The position numbers and the translations under genes are program-made. A DNA stretch of 64,000 bases. Source: an uncultured Lachnospiraceae bacterium. GTDB lineage: Bacteria; Bacillota; Clostridia; Lachnospirales; Lachnospiraceae. Positions 14,455-53,711 of this stretch are shown piece after piece. Positions within the stretch are counted from its first letter, which is position 1. Each line of letters begins with the position of its first letter. The stretch lies in NCBI GenBank assembly GCA_946623875.1, contig CAMORO010000001.1:1-64000 (forward strand). Reading direction: 5' to 3'. Under the pieces are notes generated by a model that had not been told where the DNA came from, did not search any database, and was given only the letters and a program-made list of their open reading frames with translations.

Positions 14455-15627
14455 TTATCCTTTTTTCTCTCTAAGTTCCTCAACATAATCGGATAATTTG
14501 CTCATGGCGATCTTCAGCTTATCAAGAGAGTAAGCATAAGATATTCGTATGAAACCTTCTCCGCTGTTACCGAAGGCCGAACCGGGTACGACTGCCAGCC
14601 TCTTTGCATCAAGCAGGGCAAATGCAAATTCCTCCGATGTCATTCCAAATTCCTTAATGCACGGAAATACATAGAAGGCTCCGAAGGGTTCGAAGCAGGG
14701 AAGTCCCATCTCCTTAAATGCATTGATCAGGAAACGTCTTCTCTGATCATATGATTCACGCATCATTGCAACATCCGGATCACCGTTCCTTAATGCTTCA
14801 ACCGCAGCATACTGGCTGGTCGTAGGTGCACACATTATACAGAACTGATGTATCTTGGTCATCTGTGCAATGATCTCCTCGGGACCGCAGGCATAACCCA
14901 GCCTCCATCCCGTCATGGCAAAGCCCTTGGAAAAACCGTTTATCAGTATCGTCCTCTCCTTCATTCCCGGTAAAGATGCAATACTGCAATGATCACCGCA
15001 ATAGGTAAGTTCGCTGTATATCTCATCCGAAAGTACAAAGATATCCTTTTCCACACATACTTCGGCTATTTCCTGAAGTTCCTCCCTCGTCATCACAGCA
15101 CCAGTGGGATTATTGGGATACGGCATGACCAATATCTTTGTCTTATCCGTAATACAGTCAAGCAGCTCCTGCTTCGTCAGCTTGAATTCATTCTCATTCT
15201 TAAGCTCTATGATAACAGGCTTTCCACCGGCAAGTATCGCACATGGTTCGTAGGAAACGTAGCTGGGCTGCGGTATCAGAACCTCATCCCCCGGATCCAG
15301 CATTGCACGCATGGCTATATCTATCGCCTCGCTGCCGCCTACGGTGATTATCACCTGTTTGGCGGCTTCATAATCGATATTAACACGTCTTTTTATATAT
15401 TTACATATCTCCTGACGGAGCTCCATAAGACCGGAATTGGATGTGTAGAAGGTCCTGCCCTTTCCCAGAGAGTAAATACCCTCATCTCTTATATGCCAGG
15501 GCGTATCGAAATCAGGCTCACCCACTCCAAGAGAAATAACATCCTTCATCTCACTGGCTATATCAAAGAACTTACGGATTCCCGACGGCTTAATGCTAAC
15601 TATTGTTTCCGATAAAGGGTTCCTCAT
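14455..15627 (-). CDS. PLP-dependent class I/II aminotransferase
   Basis: NGFSKGFAMTGWRLGYACGP PLP-lysine motif; PYPNNPTGAV. Confidence 0.93.
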   Translation of the reverse strand: MRNPLSETIVSIKPSGIRKFFDIASEMKDVISLGVGEPDFDTPWHIRDEGIYSLGKGRTFYTSNSGLMELRQEICKYIKRRVNIDYEAAKQVIITVGGSEAIDIAMRAMLDPGDEVLIPQPSYVSYEPCAILAGGKPVIIELKNENEFKLTKQELLDCITDKTKILVMPYPNNPTGAVMTREELQEIAEVCVEKDIFVLSDEIYSELTYCGDHCSIASLPGMKERTILINGFSKGFAMTGWRLGYACGPEEIIAQMTKIHQFCIMCAPTTSQYAAVEALRNGDPDVAMMRESYDQRRRFLINAFKEMGLPCFEPFGAFYVFPCIKEFGMTSEEFAFALLDAKRLAVVPGSAFGNSGEGFIRISYAYSLDKLKIAMSKLSDYVEELREKKG

Positions 15628-24073: not shown

Positions 24074-24113
24074 TTTCGCTCCGCATTGCTATATTGATAA
24101 CTATTCAGAACAG

Positions 24114-44387: not shown

Positions 44388-44592
44388 TCTGCCCCACCTC
44401 TGTTAAATAATAATCTTAACTATTCAAAACAGCGCAAAATCAGCTATATTTTAGTATATACTCACTTTTTGCGTTTATCAAGAATACCTGTCTAAAAAAT
44501 GTGTTCCTCGCGCCGCGGTTATGTTATACTGTAAACAGCACAGGAATATGACACGCTTCGGTTAAAGAAGCATCGTAATAAAGGAGACGCCT

Positions 44593-45441: not shown

Positions 45442-45612
45442 ATGGCATATACAATAAGTGATGCTTGCATCAGTTGCGGAACATGTGAGGCTCAGTGCCC
45501 CGTAGGTGCTATCTCGGCAGGCGATGGCAAGTTCGAGATCGATGAAGACAAGTGCGTTAGCTGCGGTTCTTGCGCAGGTGCATGCCCTGTCGGAGCTATT
45601 GAGGCTGATTGA
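45442..45612 (+). CDS. 56-aa 2[4Fe-4S] ferredoxin (below the ORF-track cutoff)
   Basis: MAYTISDACISCGTCEAQCPVGAISAGDGKFEIDEDKCVSCGSCAGACPVGAIEAD with AAGGAGG upstream. Confidence 0.95.
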   Translation: MAYTISDACISCGTCEAQCPVGAISAGDGKFEIDEDKCVSCGSCAGACPVGAIEAD

Positions 45613-45615
45613 TTA

Positions 45616-45805
45616 CCTCACACAGACTCAAAAGGTCATAAGGACTCCTCCCGTAAACGGGTCCCTCCTCATGACAAATACTCAAAACGCTTCGCGTTTT
45701 TCGTTGCGTGAGCTCGTCAAGCACTCGCTCACTTCACAGAAAATAAAAACCATCTCCTTCATGCAAGCATGGGAGATGGTTTTTATTTTCTGTGACTGTG
45801 TGAGG
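45616..45805. repeat. Structured palindromic element A (multi-hairpin) between convergent genes
   Basis: Outer arms CCTCACACAG/CTGTGTGAGG; hairpin GTCATAAGGA..CCCGTaaACGGG..TCCTCATGAC; AAAACGC-TTC-GCGTTTT; GTGAGC/GCTCAC; 23-bp perfect arm CACAGAAAATAAAAACCATCTCC/GGAGATGGTTTTTATTTTCTGTG around loop with ATGCAAGCATG. Confidence 0.85.
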
Positions 45806-45812
45806 GTTTTCC

Positions 45813-47144
45813 TCACTGTTTCGACATGTTTGCGAAGCGGGTTGTCTTGGGCATCCATACCAGTTCGACGGTTCCTATCGGGCCGTTCCTCTGCTTGGCT
45901 ATTATCACTTCCGCTACTCCCTGCTTGGGAGATTCCTTGTTATAGTAATCATCTCTGTAGAGGAACATCACTACATCCGCATCCTGCTCTATCGCCCCCG
46001 ACTCTCTTAGATCGGACAGCATCGGACGGTGGTCCTCTCTTTTTTCCACCGCACGGGAAAGCTGAGACAGCGCTACCACCGGAACATTCAGTTCCCTGGC
46101 AAGAGCCTTAAGTGAACGTGATATTTCCGATATTTCCTGCTGTCTGGAATCGGAGCGTCCGTTACCGCTCATTAGCTGCAGATAGTCGATTATCACTATT
46201 GAAAGTCCGTGCTCCTGACTGTATTTACGGCATTTGGACCTTAATTCACCTATACTTATACCCGGTGTATCATCTATTATCAGCTTGGATCTTGATATGA
46301 TATCCGCACCCTCTATCAGATTCTCCCAGTCGGCATCGGCTAGCTCCCCTGTCCTTATCTTCTGAGCCTCAACATGTGATTCAAGAGAAAGCATTCGGTT
46401 GATCAACTGCTCCTTACTCATCTCCAGTGAGAAGATCGCGGCACAAAGTCCCGACTTGAAGCAGACATGCTGGGCTACATTAAGTACGAATGCAGTCTTG
46501 CCCATCGACGGACGGGCTGCGATAAGTATAAGATCCGAAGGCTGCAGGCCTGCCAGCCTGTAATCAAGATCGGTAAACCCCGTTGCTATACCGGTTACAT
46601 ACCCCTGATTCCTGGAGATCACGCTTATATGCTCGAGAGCATCCACCACCACCTTGCGGATCGGCACAAAATCGTCACCACCTCGCCTTGAGACTATGTT
46701 GAAGACCCTCTTCTCGGCATCCGCCAGGATATCGTCCGTTGATTCCTTGGGATTGTAGCAACGGTTGTTTATCTCATCGTTTAACTTGATAAGACGCCTC
46801 ATGACAGCCTTGTCTGCGACTATCCTGATATATTCCCTGATATTGGCGGAGGTGTAGGTACTGTTTACAATGTCCACCATATATTCCATATTGCTGATCG
46901 TCTCAGGCAGGTTCTTCTCAACCAGTCTGGCCTTTAGGGTAACAGGATCGACCGGCTTGCCTTCATTGTACAGCTCCACCATGGCCGCAAACAGTTCGCC
47001 GTACTGATCATGATAAAAATCATCCTTATTCAGCATTTCGGATGCCACAACAATGGCATCCTTATCCATTAACATACTTCCTATGACCGACTGTTCAGCC
47101 TCTTTGTCATTGGGCAGTAATCTCTTTACAACCGCATCACTCAT
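45813..47144 (-). CDS. dnaB: Replicative DNA helicase
   Basis: LPNDKEAEQSVIGSMLMDKDAI; LILIAARPSMGKTAFVLNVAQH; VVALSQLSRAVEKR. Confidence 0.97.
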   Translation of the reverse strand: MSDAVVKRLLPNDKEAEQSVIGSMLMDKDAIVVASEMLNKDDFYHDQYGELFAAMVELYNEGKPVDPVTLKARLVEKNLPETISNMEYMVDIVNSTYTSANIREYIRIVADKAVMRRLIKLNDEINNRCYNPKESTDDILADAEKRVFNIVSRRGGDDFVPIRKVVVDALEHISVISRNQGYVTGIATGFTDLDYRLAGLQPSDLILIAARPSMGKTAFVLNVAQHVCFKSGLCAAIFSLEMSKEQLINRMLSLESHVEAQKIRTGELADADWENLIEGADIISRSKLIIDDTPGISIGELRSKCRKYSQEHGLSIVIIDYLQLMSGNGRSDSRQQEISEISRSLKALARELNVPVVALSQLSRAVEKREDHRPMLSDLRESGAIEQDADVVMFLYRDDYYNKESPKQGVAEVIIAKQRNGPIGTVELVWMPKTTRFANMSKQ

Positions 47145-51331: not shown

Positions 51332-51483
51332 ATATCTGCACTAACAGCCTGTCCGCAGCAAACGAAATGTACAGTACAGGGTTTTATATCCTTCTTTGAA
51401 AGGTTATCACTTGAAACCATAACTTGTCAATCGGGTTGCTTTCACTCTTGACTCCGTCTTTGCCGGTAATTAAAATACATATT

Positions 51484-52968
51484 ATGAGCACAGTTAATAC
51501 ATTTGATGATCAATATCATATTGCTGTTTCCGAAAAACTCCTTGAATTTATCGATGCTTCACCGTCATGCTATCACGCTGTTGCGGGTATAAAGGACATG
51601 CTGTCGGATTATACGGAGCTTAGGGAGCAGGACGAATGGTCACTCAGGCCGGGGCAGGGCTATTATGTTGTCAGGAATTCTTCATCAATAATTGCTTTTC
51701 GGATACCCGCCGATACAGATCCGGTCACAACGGATAACACAGATATGCCTGCTTTCCTTATCAGTGCGGCGCACAGTGATTCCCCTGCCTTTAAGCTGAA
51801 ACCCGGCTGCGAAATGGATGTTGAGAAACATTATACCAGACTTAATGTCGAAAAATACGGCGGCATGATCATGTCATCCTGGTTCGACCGTCCCTTATCG
51901 GTGGCCGGAAGAGTTTTTACAGATGAAAACGGCTCAATTACCGAACATCTTATCAACATCGACAGGGATCTGCTCATAATCCCTTCTGTTGCCATACATA
52001 TGAACCGTGATATAAATGACGGATATAAATACAATGCACAGAAAGATATGCTGCCTCTTTTTGCTGCCTACATACCCGAAACCGGTAAACACGGAACAAA
52101 CACGGAAGATGCTTCCGGCTCCGTAATAAATGACAGGGAAACCGATAGAGCATCACAAGAAGGTATTCTTATCGATATTATCGCACGCGAAGCGGGTATA
52201 CCTGCCGATTCGATCCTTGGCTCAGACCTGTTCATTTATCCGAGAGTCAGAGGAACCTTCCTTGGACATAACAGTGAGCTCATCGCAAGCAGGGCACTTG
52301 ATGACCTGCAGTGCGCCTTCGCACTTATCCGGGGATTTGTAAGTTCGGAAGACGGCTCGGAAAGAGATAAGATCAATGACGATCTTTCCATCGGTACGTA
52401 TATTGAGAGAAAAACCGGTCCGGCAAAAAACAAAACAGGATTTAATATTCCTGTATGTGCCGTGTTTGATAATGAAGAAACCGGAAGCCTCTCAAAACAG
52501 GGAGCAGACTCCACTTTCCTTTACGATACCTTATCAAGGATTGCCGACTGCCTTGGATATGATCATATACAGCTAAGACGCATGCTTGCAAACAGCTTCA
52601 TGATATCGGCCGACAATGCGCATGCTGTCCATCCCAATCATCCCGAGTACGCGGATCCCACAAACCGTCCGTATCTCAACGGCGGTATAGTAATTAAATA
52701 CAACGCTTCACAGAAATATACGACCGACGGTAATTCGGAAGCCCGTCTGCGTAAGCTGTGCAGACAGGCCGGCGTGCCTGTTCAGACCTACGTAAACAGG
52801 TCGGACATAGCAGGCGGCTCCACCCTTGGTAATCTGTCCAACCGTCATGTCTCTGTTCCTACCGTGGATATAGGACTGCCCCAGCTTTCGATGCACAGTT
52901 GCTTCGAAACTGCCGGGGCATATGATACTGAGTATATGATCAGGCTTATACGTGAATTCTATGATTAA
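51484..52968 (+). CDS. M18-family aminopeptidase
   Basis: LLEFIDASPSCYHAVAGIKDML...SAAHSDSPAFKLKP...VFDNEETGSLSKQGADSTFL...SADNAHAVHPNHPEYADPTNRPYLNGGIVIKYN. Confidence 0.95.
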   Translation: MSTVNTFDDQYHIAVSEKLLEFIDASPSCYHAVAGIKDMLSDYTELREQDEWSLRPGQGYYVVRNSSSIIAFRIPADTDPVTTDNTDMPAFLISAAHSDSPAFKLKPGCEMDVEKHYTRLNVEKYGGMIMSSWFDRPLSVAGRVFTDENGSITEHLINIDRDLLIIPSVAIHMNRDINDGYKYNAQKDMLPLFAAYIPETGKHGTNTEDASGSVINDRETDRASQEGILIDIIAREAGIPADSILGSDLFIYPRVRGTFLGHNSELIASRALDDLQCAFALIRGFVSSEDGSERDKINDDLSIGTYIERKTGPAKNKTGFNIPVCAVFDNEETGSLSKQGADSTFLYDTLSRIADCLGYDHIQLRRMLANSFMISADNAHAVHPNHPEYADPTNRPYLNGGIVIKYNASQKYTTDGNSEARLRKLCRQAGVPVQTYVNRSDIAGGSTLGNLSNRHVSVPTVDIGLPQLSMHSCFETAGAYDTEYMIRLIREFYD

Positions 52969-52982
52969 TATATGTTGATATT

Positions 52983-53125
52983 GTAACTATTCAGAACAGG
53001 CTCAAAATACTTCGTATTTTTCGCTGTTTTGGATTCATCCAATACATAAATTTATAAAATATGCTGTTTATATGCAAGCATGACACATCATATTTTAAAA
53101 TTTATGTGCTGTTCTGAATAGTTAC
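52983..53125. repeat. Structured palindromic element B (multi-hairpin) between convergent genes
   Basis: 17-bp perfect outer inverted repeat GTAACTATTCAGAACAG/CTGTTCTGAATAGTTAC; AAAATAC-TTC-GTATTTT; TTGGAT-tc-ATCCAA; long A/T stem 53044-53063/53089-53107 around loop with ATGCAAGCATG. Confidence 0.88.
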
Positions 53126-53144
53126 CTGATATTGCTGACTTTAC

Positions 53145-53711
53145 TTATGCGGCTTTGTTTACCGCAGCAACACCGACTCTCTTAAGTGCCTTCCTTACCG
53201 GCACTCCCACAGCTATCGCGACCACCATCTTAACTATGTCCATTGGAATGAAGGGGATAACGCCTGCTGCCAGTGCCGCATTAAATGTCATTCCCGCCGA
53301 TACCGCAAGCCATACGGTTCCAAGAGTATAACAGACCGCCACTCCAATGATCATACCCACCGCATGCATATACGGCTTATCTTCGAACTTATCTATAAAC
53401 AGTCCCGTAAAGAATGCAACCGCAATATATCCGATGATATATCCGCCTGTGGGACCGAAGAGCTTCTGAGGTCCTCCGGTGAAGTTGGCCATTACGGGTA
53501 CTCCCACAAGTCCTATAAGTATATAGAGTACGCAGGCAACCGTTCCCCATTTGGCACCGAGCACATAAGCCGCAAGGTATATTCCAAGGATCGCAAGCGA
53601 GATCGGTACCGGACTTACCGGTATATTTAACGACAAAGGCCCCAGCACGCATATCACTGCGGTCGCCAGGCCTATGTAACACATTTTCCTTACTTTTGAA
53701 TTTGTTTCCAT
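53145..53711 (-). CDS. bioY: Biotin transporter BioY
   Basis: CVLGPLSLNIPVSPVPISLAILGIYLAAYVLGAKWGTVACVLYILIGLVGVPVMANFTGGPQKLFGPTGGYIIGYI. Confidence 0.95.
   Translation of the reverse strand: METNSKVRKMCYIGLATAVICVLGPLSLNIPVSPVPISLAILGIYLAAYVLGAKWGTVACVLYILIGLVGVPVMANFTGGPQKLFGPTGGYIIGYIAVAFFTGLFIDKFEDKPYMHAVGMIIGVAVCYTLGTVWLAVSAGMTFNAALAAGVIPFIPMDIVKMVVAIAVGVPVRKALKRVGVAAVNKAA

Follow-up and report, generated by a model that had tools for sequence, protein, structure and literature searches.

The stretch of DNA analysed here (the window, 64 kb) contains two folded elements, A and B, each lying between convergent genes as already noted in a preliminary description. Element A (45616–45805, read on the minus strand) fills the gap between the stop codons of a 2[4Fe-4S] ferredoxin gene (45442–45613, plus strand), which ends 2 nt short of the element, and of dnaB, the gene of the replicative helicase (45813–47144, minus strand), whose stop codon (45813–45815) lies 7 nt before the outer stem of A. 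The neighbours of element B (52983–53125, minus strand) are an M18 aminopeptidase gene (51424–52968, plus strand) and a bioY gene (53145–53711, minus strand). All hairpins and loops that had been described as common to A and B were found again. With up to three mismatches, the shared motif CTCAAAANNCTTCGNNTTTTTCG has two matches in the window where 0.04 are expected, and 32 in the 2.8-Mb draft genome where the reversed control gave none; its presence in both elements is not due to chance.

On the dnaB strand A is closed by an outer stem (5' arm CCTCACACAG at 45796–45805, 3' arm CTGTGTGAGG at 45616–45625), which is supported by the inverted repeat and the predicted fold; the whole element folds with z-scores of -8.9 (plus strand) and -10.1 (minus strand). 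Hairpin 1 (45734–45795), the longest, consists of a stem, an AA bulge and a CATGCTTGCATG tip, with the loop CATGCAAGCATG at 45760–45771; its stem is perfect, as had been stated, and measures 24 bp instead of the reported 23 bp. Hairpin 2 (45708–45732) pairs GTGAGC with GCTCAC and contains CGAG...CGAG, possibly tandem G.A pairs, and hairpin 3 (45681–45703) has the form CGAAAAACGC-GAA-GCGTTTTGAG, with the covarying stem AAAACGC/GCGTTTT and a conserved CGA/GAG base. The preliminary inventory was right for the hairpins it listed, but missed the 17-bp perfect terminal inverted repeat of B and a fourth hairpin of A (TATTTGTCATGAGG...CCTTATGACC, 45630–45680, minus strand). The latter is flanked by TTTTGAG repeats and is absent in the nearest relative, the sister copy L121, where partial tandem repeats take its place. 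Several other elements have a similar hairpin behind TTTTGAG, so the fourth hairpin is regarded as a recurring optional module. A module of the form ATTYGTCATAAGGGGTACCGC...GGATTCCTTATGAC was seen in A and in L107 (709–760), L192, L195, L323, L402 and L403, placed either within hairpin 3 or behind its TTTTGAG, and may be a mobile unit of its own. The 3' half of the element is often partially duplicated in tandem as well (L032, L039, L042, L052 and L121), which suggests slippage or repeated partial insertion.

At cut-off, an Rfam search gave no match anywhere in the window. With permissive filters, however, cmscan assigned positions 45675–45800 of the minus strand to RF01699 (Clostridiales-1) with 40.1 bits (E = 9.6e-8), compared with a curated gathering cut-off of 48 bits. 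The model aligned end to end, and the order of its parts on one strand was found in A and in its orthologues: an outer stem, a hairpin 1 that carries the AA bulge and the GCUUGC tip, a hairpin 2 and a hairpin 3 with CGNAG tip. A differs from the described RNA in its shorter hairpins 2 and 3, in the extra fourth hairpin and in a score under the cut-off. Orthologues at the dnaB site lie on both sides of the cut-off (L128 with 54.7, L121 with 50.2 and L123 with 42.8 bits), and for two more, L125 and L127, the search for RF01699 gave no match. A had been presented as a candidate for an undescribed element, with an existing Rfam family named as a refuting finding; by that measure the proposal is not supported, and A is a divergent resident copy of RF01699 and not new as a family. 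B matches RF01699 weakly, with 25.9 bits and under the cut-off. Elements of the same genome with B-like GTAACTATTCAGAAC ends reach 59.1 and 56.1 bits, which links the B-type to the RF01699-type elements. RF01699 is present in 30 of 37 genomes of A's genus and, at the level of the host's bacterial family, in 163 of 298 genomes, whereas 12 genomes sampled from other families of the order had no copy. Relatives that share the repeat are mostly rumen and gut Lachnospiraceae, and the host is very probably an uncultured member of this group. In the table of its 2010 description, Clostridiales-1 is a probable RNA that is not cis-regulatory, and the main text of that article, its supplement aside, makes no mention of mobility or of stop-codon position (Weinberg et al., 2010, PMC2864571). 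Within the literature covered, our search on Clostridiales-1 yielded nothing besides this table and passing mentions, and a search on MITEs (short non-autonomous transposons) of Lachnospiraceae yielded no relevant paper.

A DnaB-based search within the genus detected an A-like element directly 3' of dnaB in six genomes, the own genome included, with DnaB identities from 99% down to 77%. In one of these (L123) the gene following the element encodes a response regulator and not a ferredoxin. The stem of the long hairpin turns over among the orthologues (CCATCTCC/GGAGATGG, AGACCCT/AGGGTCT, GCCTCT/AGAGGC, AGTCCAT/ATGGACT) with pairing kept, while the CATGCTTGCATG tip and the A-rich bulge that follows it stay constant. 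Across the six orthologues 21 of 41 pairs are changed on both sides, a value reached by none of 500 shuffles. The alignment contains 38 double-changed cells for these 41 pairs, compared with a mean of 12.4 after shuffling and no more than 4 in slid alignments, and 96.7% of its cells are paired (83.1% after shuffling). For 19 other copies of the family 163 double-changed cells were counted, against 53.7 in shuffled alignments. The covariation first noticed between A and B, where the AAAACGC/GCGTTTT stem of A has its counterpart in the CTCAAAATACTTCGTATTTTTCG hairpin of B, was confirmed. In the alignments of copies, compensatory changes exceed the shuffled controls and, for the orthologues, the slid ones, which supports the view that pairing is kept over sequence.

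The strand on which the fold is maintained was deduced from 70 non-redundant copies, which were folded with Watson-Crick pairs only and in which single mismatches inside stems were counted. Purine-purine oppositions (G.A, A.G, G.G) amounted to 59 and their complements (TC, CC) to 1, and G-T mismatches outnumbered A-C mismatches by 27 to 13 (p = 0.04), so the folded strand is that of the Rfam model, i.e., of the mRNA. The G-U excess is modest, and single-stranded DNA as the folding form remains compatible with it. In the orthologues of A only one of 245 cells is G-U, which would follow from a role of both strands or from self-correction of palindromes. Correction of one arm against the other is known for palindromes, and template switching during replication could in principle produce covariation without selection and without any function. 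The very long and nearly perfect stem of A, the predominance of two-sided changes and the near absence of G-U speak for such an origin. As a full explanation we consider it unlikely: loops, AA bulge and GA motifs stay constant while stems turn over, unpaired purines still face each other, on one strand only, although correction would erase such oppositions, G-U exceeds A-C among the family copies, and the copy has persisted at one site among species whose DnaB proteins are 77% identical. Palindrome-templated mutation may nevertheless account for part of the covariation.

While the preliminary description was largely right about structural constraint, it did not recognise B as a transposon-like repeat with target duplications, nor the mobility of the family. 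B is one of about 20 near-identical 143-bp copies of a MITE without an ORF, whose 17-bp terminal inverted repeats match at 17 of 17 positions. It contains the CTCAAAATACTTCGTATTTTTCG hairpin (53001–53023), a second hairpin (53029–53042) and a long hairpin (53044–53107), and it is flanked by target-site duplications, TTGATATT on the left (52975–52982) and CTGATATT on the right (53126–53133), which are identical at seven of eight positions. B is a member of a related family, whose ends read GTAAC and whose duplications measure 8 bp, and it would be a younger MITE than A, moved by a transposase that leaves duplications of this length. Among 37 sites of GTAAC-ended elements, B among these, 17 carry a perfect 8-bp duplication (0.5 after shuffling) and a further five agree in seven of eight positions (0.3 after shuffling). 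There is no clean empty site for B, since the order of neighbouring genes differs in the two genomes concerned (G009, G044). Two lone GTAACTATTCAGAACAG-like ends in the window (24097–24113 with one and 44416–44432 with two mismatches) are possibly remnants of B-type elements. Carriage of B by phages or plasmids was dismissed, as it had no match in either collection; among viral contigs there was one match to the core of B (L150) and none to the canonical hairpin 3.

Copies of RF01699 from other genera start with TGATNCCAGGGTCAAAAG and extend past the Rfam model to CTTTTGACCCCAACATCA, and 31 of 42 two-ended copies are flanked by perfect target duplications of 5–6 bp, compared with 2.1 after shuffling (maximum 7 in 1000). 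In one genome the end motif occurs 206 times (control: 1), i.e., about 100 copies by count of terminal repeats. A third kind of ends, CCACCTGTGCGG, belongs to a 206-bp repeat with RF01699-like core in genome G017 (L113, L114, L115), where a 9-bp repeat, GAAATTTTT, was found at L113 and less exactly at the other two copies. RF01699 matches that reach or approach the cut-off were found in elements of all three end types, with duplications of 5–6, 8 and 9 bp. Two minimal elements of 71 bp (L301, L302) contain, besides hairpin 1, nothing but the RF01699 terminal repeats, the former between copies of the 5-bp target duplication TGCTA. By its ends and duplications, RF01699 itself looks like a miniature transposon (MITE). 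The transposases that moved these elements are inferred; no autonomous transposase with matching ends was found, the stretches around chosen terminal repeats in G077 and G241 holding ordinary genes. An IS66 element of the own genome was rejected as mover of B, for its ends, GTAAGCGTCTAAC (GTAAGCG...), have only GTAA in common with B; an element with an IS66 transposase (PF03050) and the ends of B was not found in this genome, which has a single PF03050 locus. The flanks of A carry no target duplication while its outer stem is present, and we treat A as an immobile descendant of a mobile element.

Copies in A's genus differ from those elsewhere in their ends and context. The right terminal repeat was found in 4 of 77 copies of A's genus and in 42 of 68 copies of other genera; 61 copies of A's genus are oriented along the upstream gene and 16 against it (32 and 36 elsewhere), and the upstream stop codon lies at the start of the element in 48 of 77 versus 7 of 68 copies (Fisher, 5e-11) or, on a per-site basis, in 31 of 59 against 7 of 65, a contrast that may be somewhat inflated, since context was derived from simple ORF calls and the samples were drawn differently, over a wide score range in A's genus and from the highest-scoring copies in other genera. 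As the mobile form starts with TGA, it can supply the stop codon itself. Several element sites are common to different species; in seven genomes, for example, a copy that starts at the etfB stop codon stands between etfB and etfA (L041/L097 on own contig C27 at 14872–15021, L108, L162, L183, L186, L189 and L196), with double changes in 12 of 36 pairs. This RF01699 copy is likely a control point of the bcd-etf operon. The pattern in A's genus fits repeated retirement into fixed elements at 3' ends or between genes.

At the dnaB site, the base of A's long hairpin is lined by an A-tract and a T-tract, which gives a G+C stem followed by a T-run on both strands (GGAGATGG-TTTTTATTTT) between convergent genes, and A resembles an intrinsic terminator in both directions (AAAATAAAAACCATCTCC-14 nt-GGAGATGGTTTTTATTTT, 45740–45789). 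This prediction is consistent with the tracts being kept in four of the five other orthologues (L121, L125, L127, L128); in the fifth, L123, the T-run in dnaB sense is interrupted (CTTGGGTTATTATTT), and there the next gene is not convergent. Several relatives that lack the element have a plain terminator-type hairpin at the convergent dnaB site, for instance L122 (with AAAACAAAACCCCTTTAC...GTAAAGGGGTTTTATTTT), L131 and L132. An automated terminator scan did not call the terminator of A because it was limited to loops of 3–8 nt. A is most likely the shared transcription stop of dnaB and ferredoxin, a reading that the comparison of orthologues and relatives supports, and termination of both genes within it is plausible.

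Our main reading, to which we assign a probability of roughly 0.7, is that A, once a mobile element, has been retired and preserved as a terminator working in both directions. An RF01699 element, a MITE of the host's bacterial family, would have inserted immediately behind dnaB in an ancestor of several species of the genus, and the copy would have been kept while its mobility was lost. On the dnaB strand the outer stem would close three hairpins, or four in the copy studied here. The long hairpin, bordered by A-tracts at one side and by T-tracts at the opposite side, would stop RNA polymerase arriving from dnaB as well as from ferredoxin, and the dnaB message would have the remaining parts of the fold at its 3' end, which they may protect. 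Termination is not the function of the whole family, since many copies lie inside operons, such as those between etfB and etfA, and have no T-tract.

These operon copies point to another possible role, which we rate somewhat short of even odds: the family would act in the message and not as a terminator, standing at the stop codon like the REP sequences of Escherichia coli and stalling terminating ribosomes, protecting the upstream message or setting the ratio of neighbouring genes, A being one such 3'-end element. REPs reduce translation when they lie no more than 15 nt from a stop codon (PMC12306157), and the orientation and stop-codon position of most copies in A's genus, the conserved etfB-etfA site and the identity of the folding strand with the mRNA strand agree with this role. 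The near-random orientation and distance in other genera mark it as a later use, however, and A has T-tracts, unlike typical operon copies, and stands in place of a terminator. The reading that follows the Rfam type, with Clostridiales-1 as a small RNA gene acting in trans and A as one of its loci, is very improbable in spite of the strong conserved fold and of a few copies that begin just past a TATAAT-like box, as the copies are bounded by terminal repeats and target duplications, occur in tens per genome at unrelated sites and in A's genus mostly start at a stop codon and not at a promoter. Retron RNA has its parts, namely outer repeats, short hairpins and a long hairpin, in the same order as the plus strand of A. 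We nevertheless rejected a retron-like msr-msd element reverse transcribed in trans as hardly credible: there is no reverse transcriptase beside A or B, the only RVT_1 protein of the genome is on another contig, target duplications fit DNA transposition, and the selected strand is opposite to the retron-like one. The RVT_1 protein (438 aa; L093, own contig C20, 2277–3591, minus strand) adjoins a peptidase-containing ABC exporter, not an element of the kind discussed here, and reads as part of a peptide export cluster. A REP/RAYT system was likewise discarded, the genome (about 83% complete) having no match to the Y1 transposase (PF01797).

Beyond A as a retired terminator, we give even odds to a wider proposition, namely that an Rfam RNA family is a mobile folded cassette, whose core has been combined with three or more kinds of transposon ends (5–6-, 8- and 9-bp duplications) within one bacterial family, brings its own stop codon by its TGA start and has been retired many times in some genera as a fixed control element at 3' ends or between genes, with its fold kept by compensatory change. 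To our knowledge, both the classification of the family as a MITE and the view of A as one of its retired copies, preserved at the site of a terminator, are new. If RF01699 is a transposable element, its hits in gut and rumen genomes are to be read differently from the small-RNA-gene typing in Rfam, and retired orthologous copies like A would offer a natural series for following the change from a mobile palindrome into a regulatory element and for separating RNA function from palindrome mutation as the source of stem covariation.

Among known systems, bacterial MITEs with IS66-like ends resemble B in a terminal inverted repeat starting from GTAA, the 8-bp duplication, the lack of an ORF and many near-identical copies, but B additionally carries a folded, covarying core. 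The nearest functional parallels are REPs near stop codons (PMC12306157) and convergent terminators with compensatory change (PMC5381666). Enterobacterial REP sequences are likewise palindromic repeats outside genes that occur in many copies, frequently at stop codons, and have a proposed effect on translation and mRNA stability, whereas RF01699 elements are much longer and have target duplications, and the genome studied here is without the REP-associated Y1 transposase. Bidirectional intrinsic terminators between convergent genes, e.g., in Bacillus cereus, share with A the A-tract, G+C stem and T-tract on both strands as well as compensatory change at conserved sites (PMC5381666); the predicted terminator of A differs from them in being one arm of a larger element of putative transposon origin.
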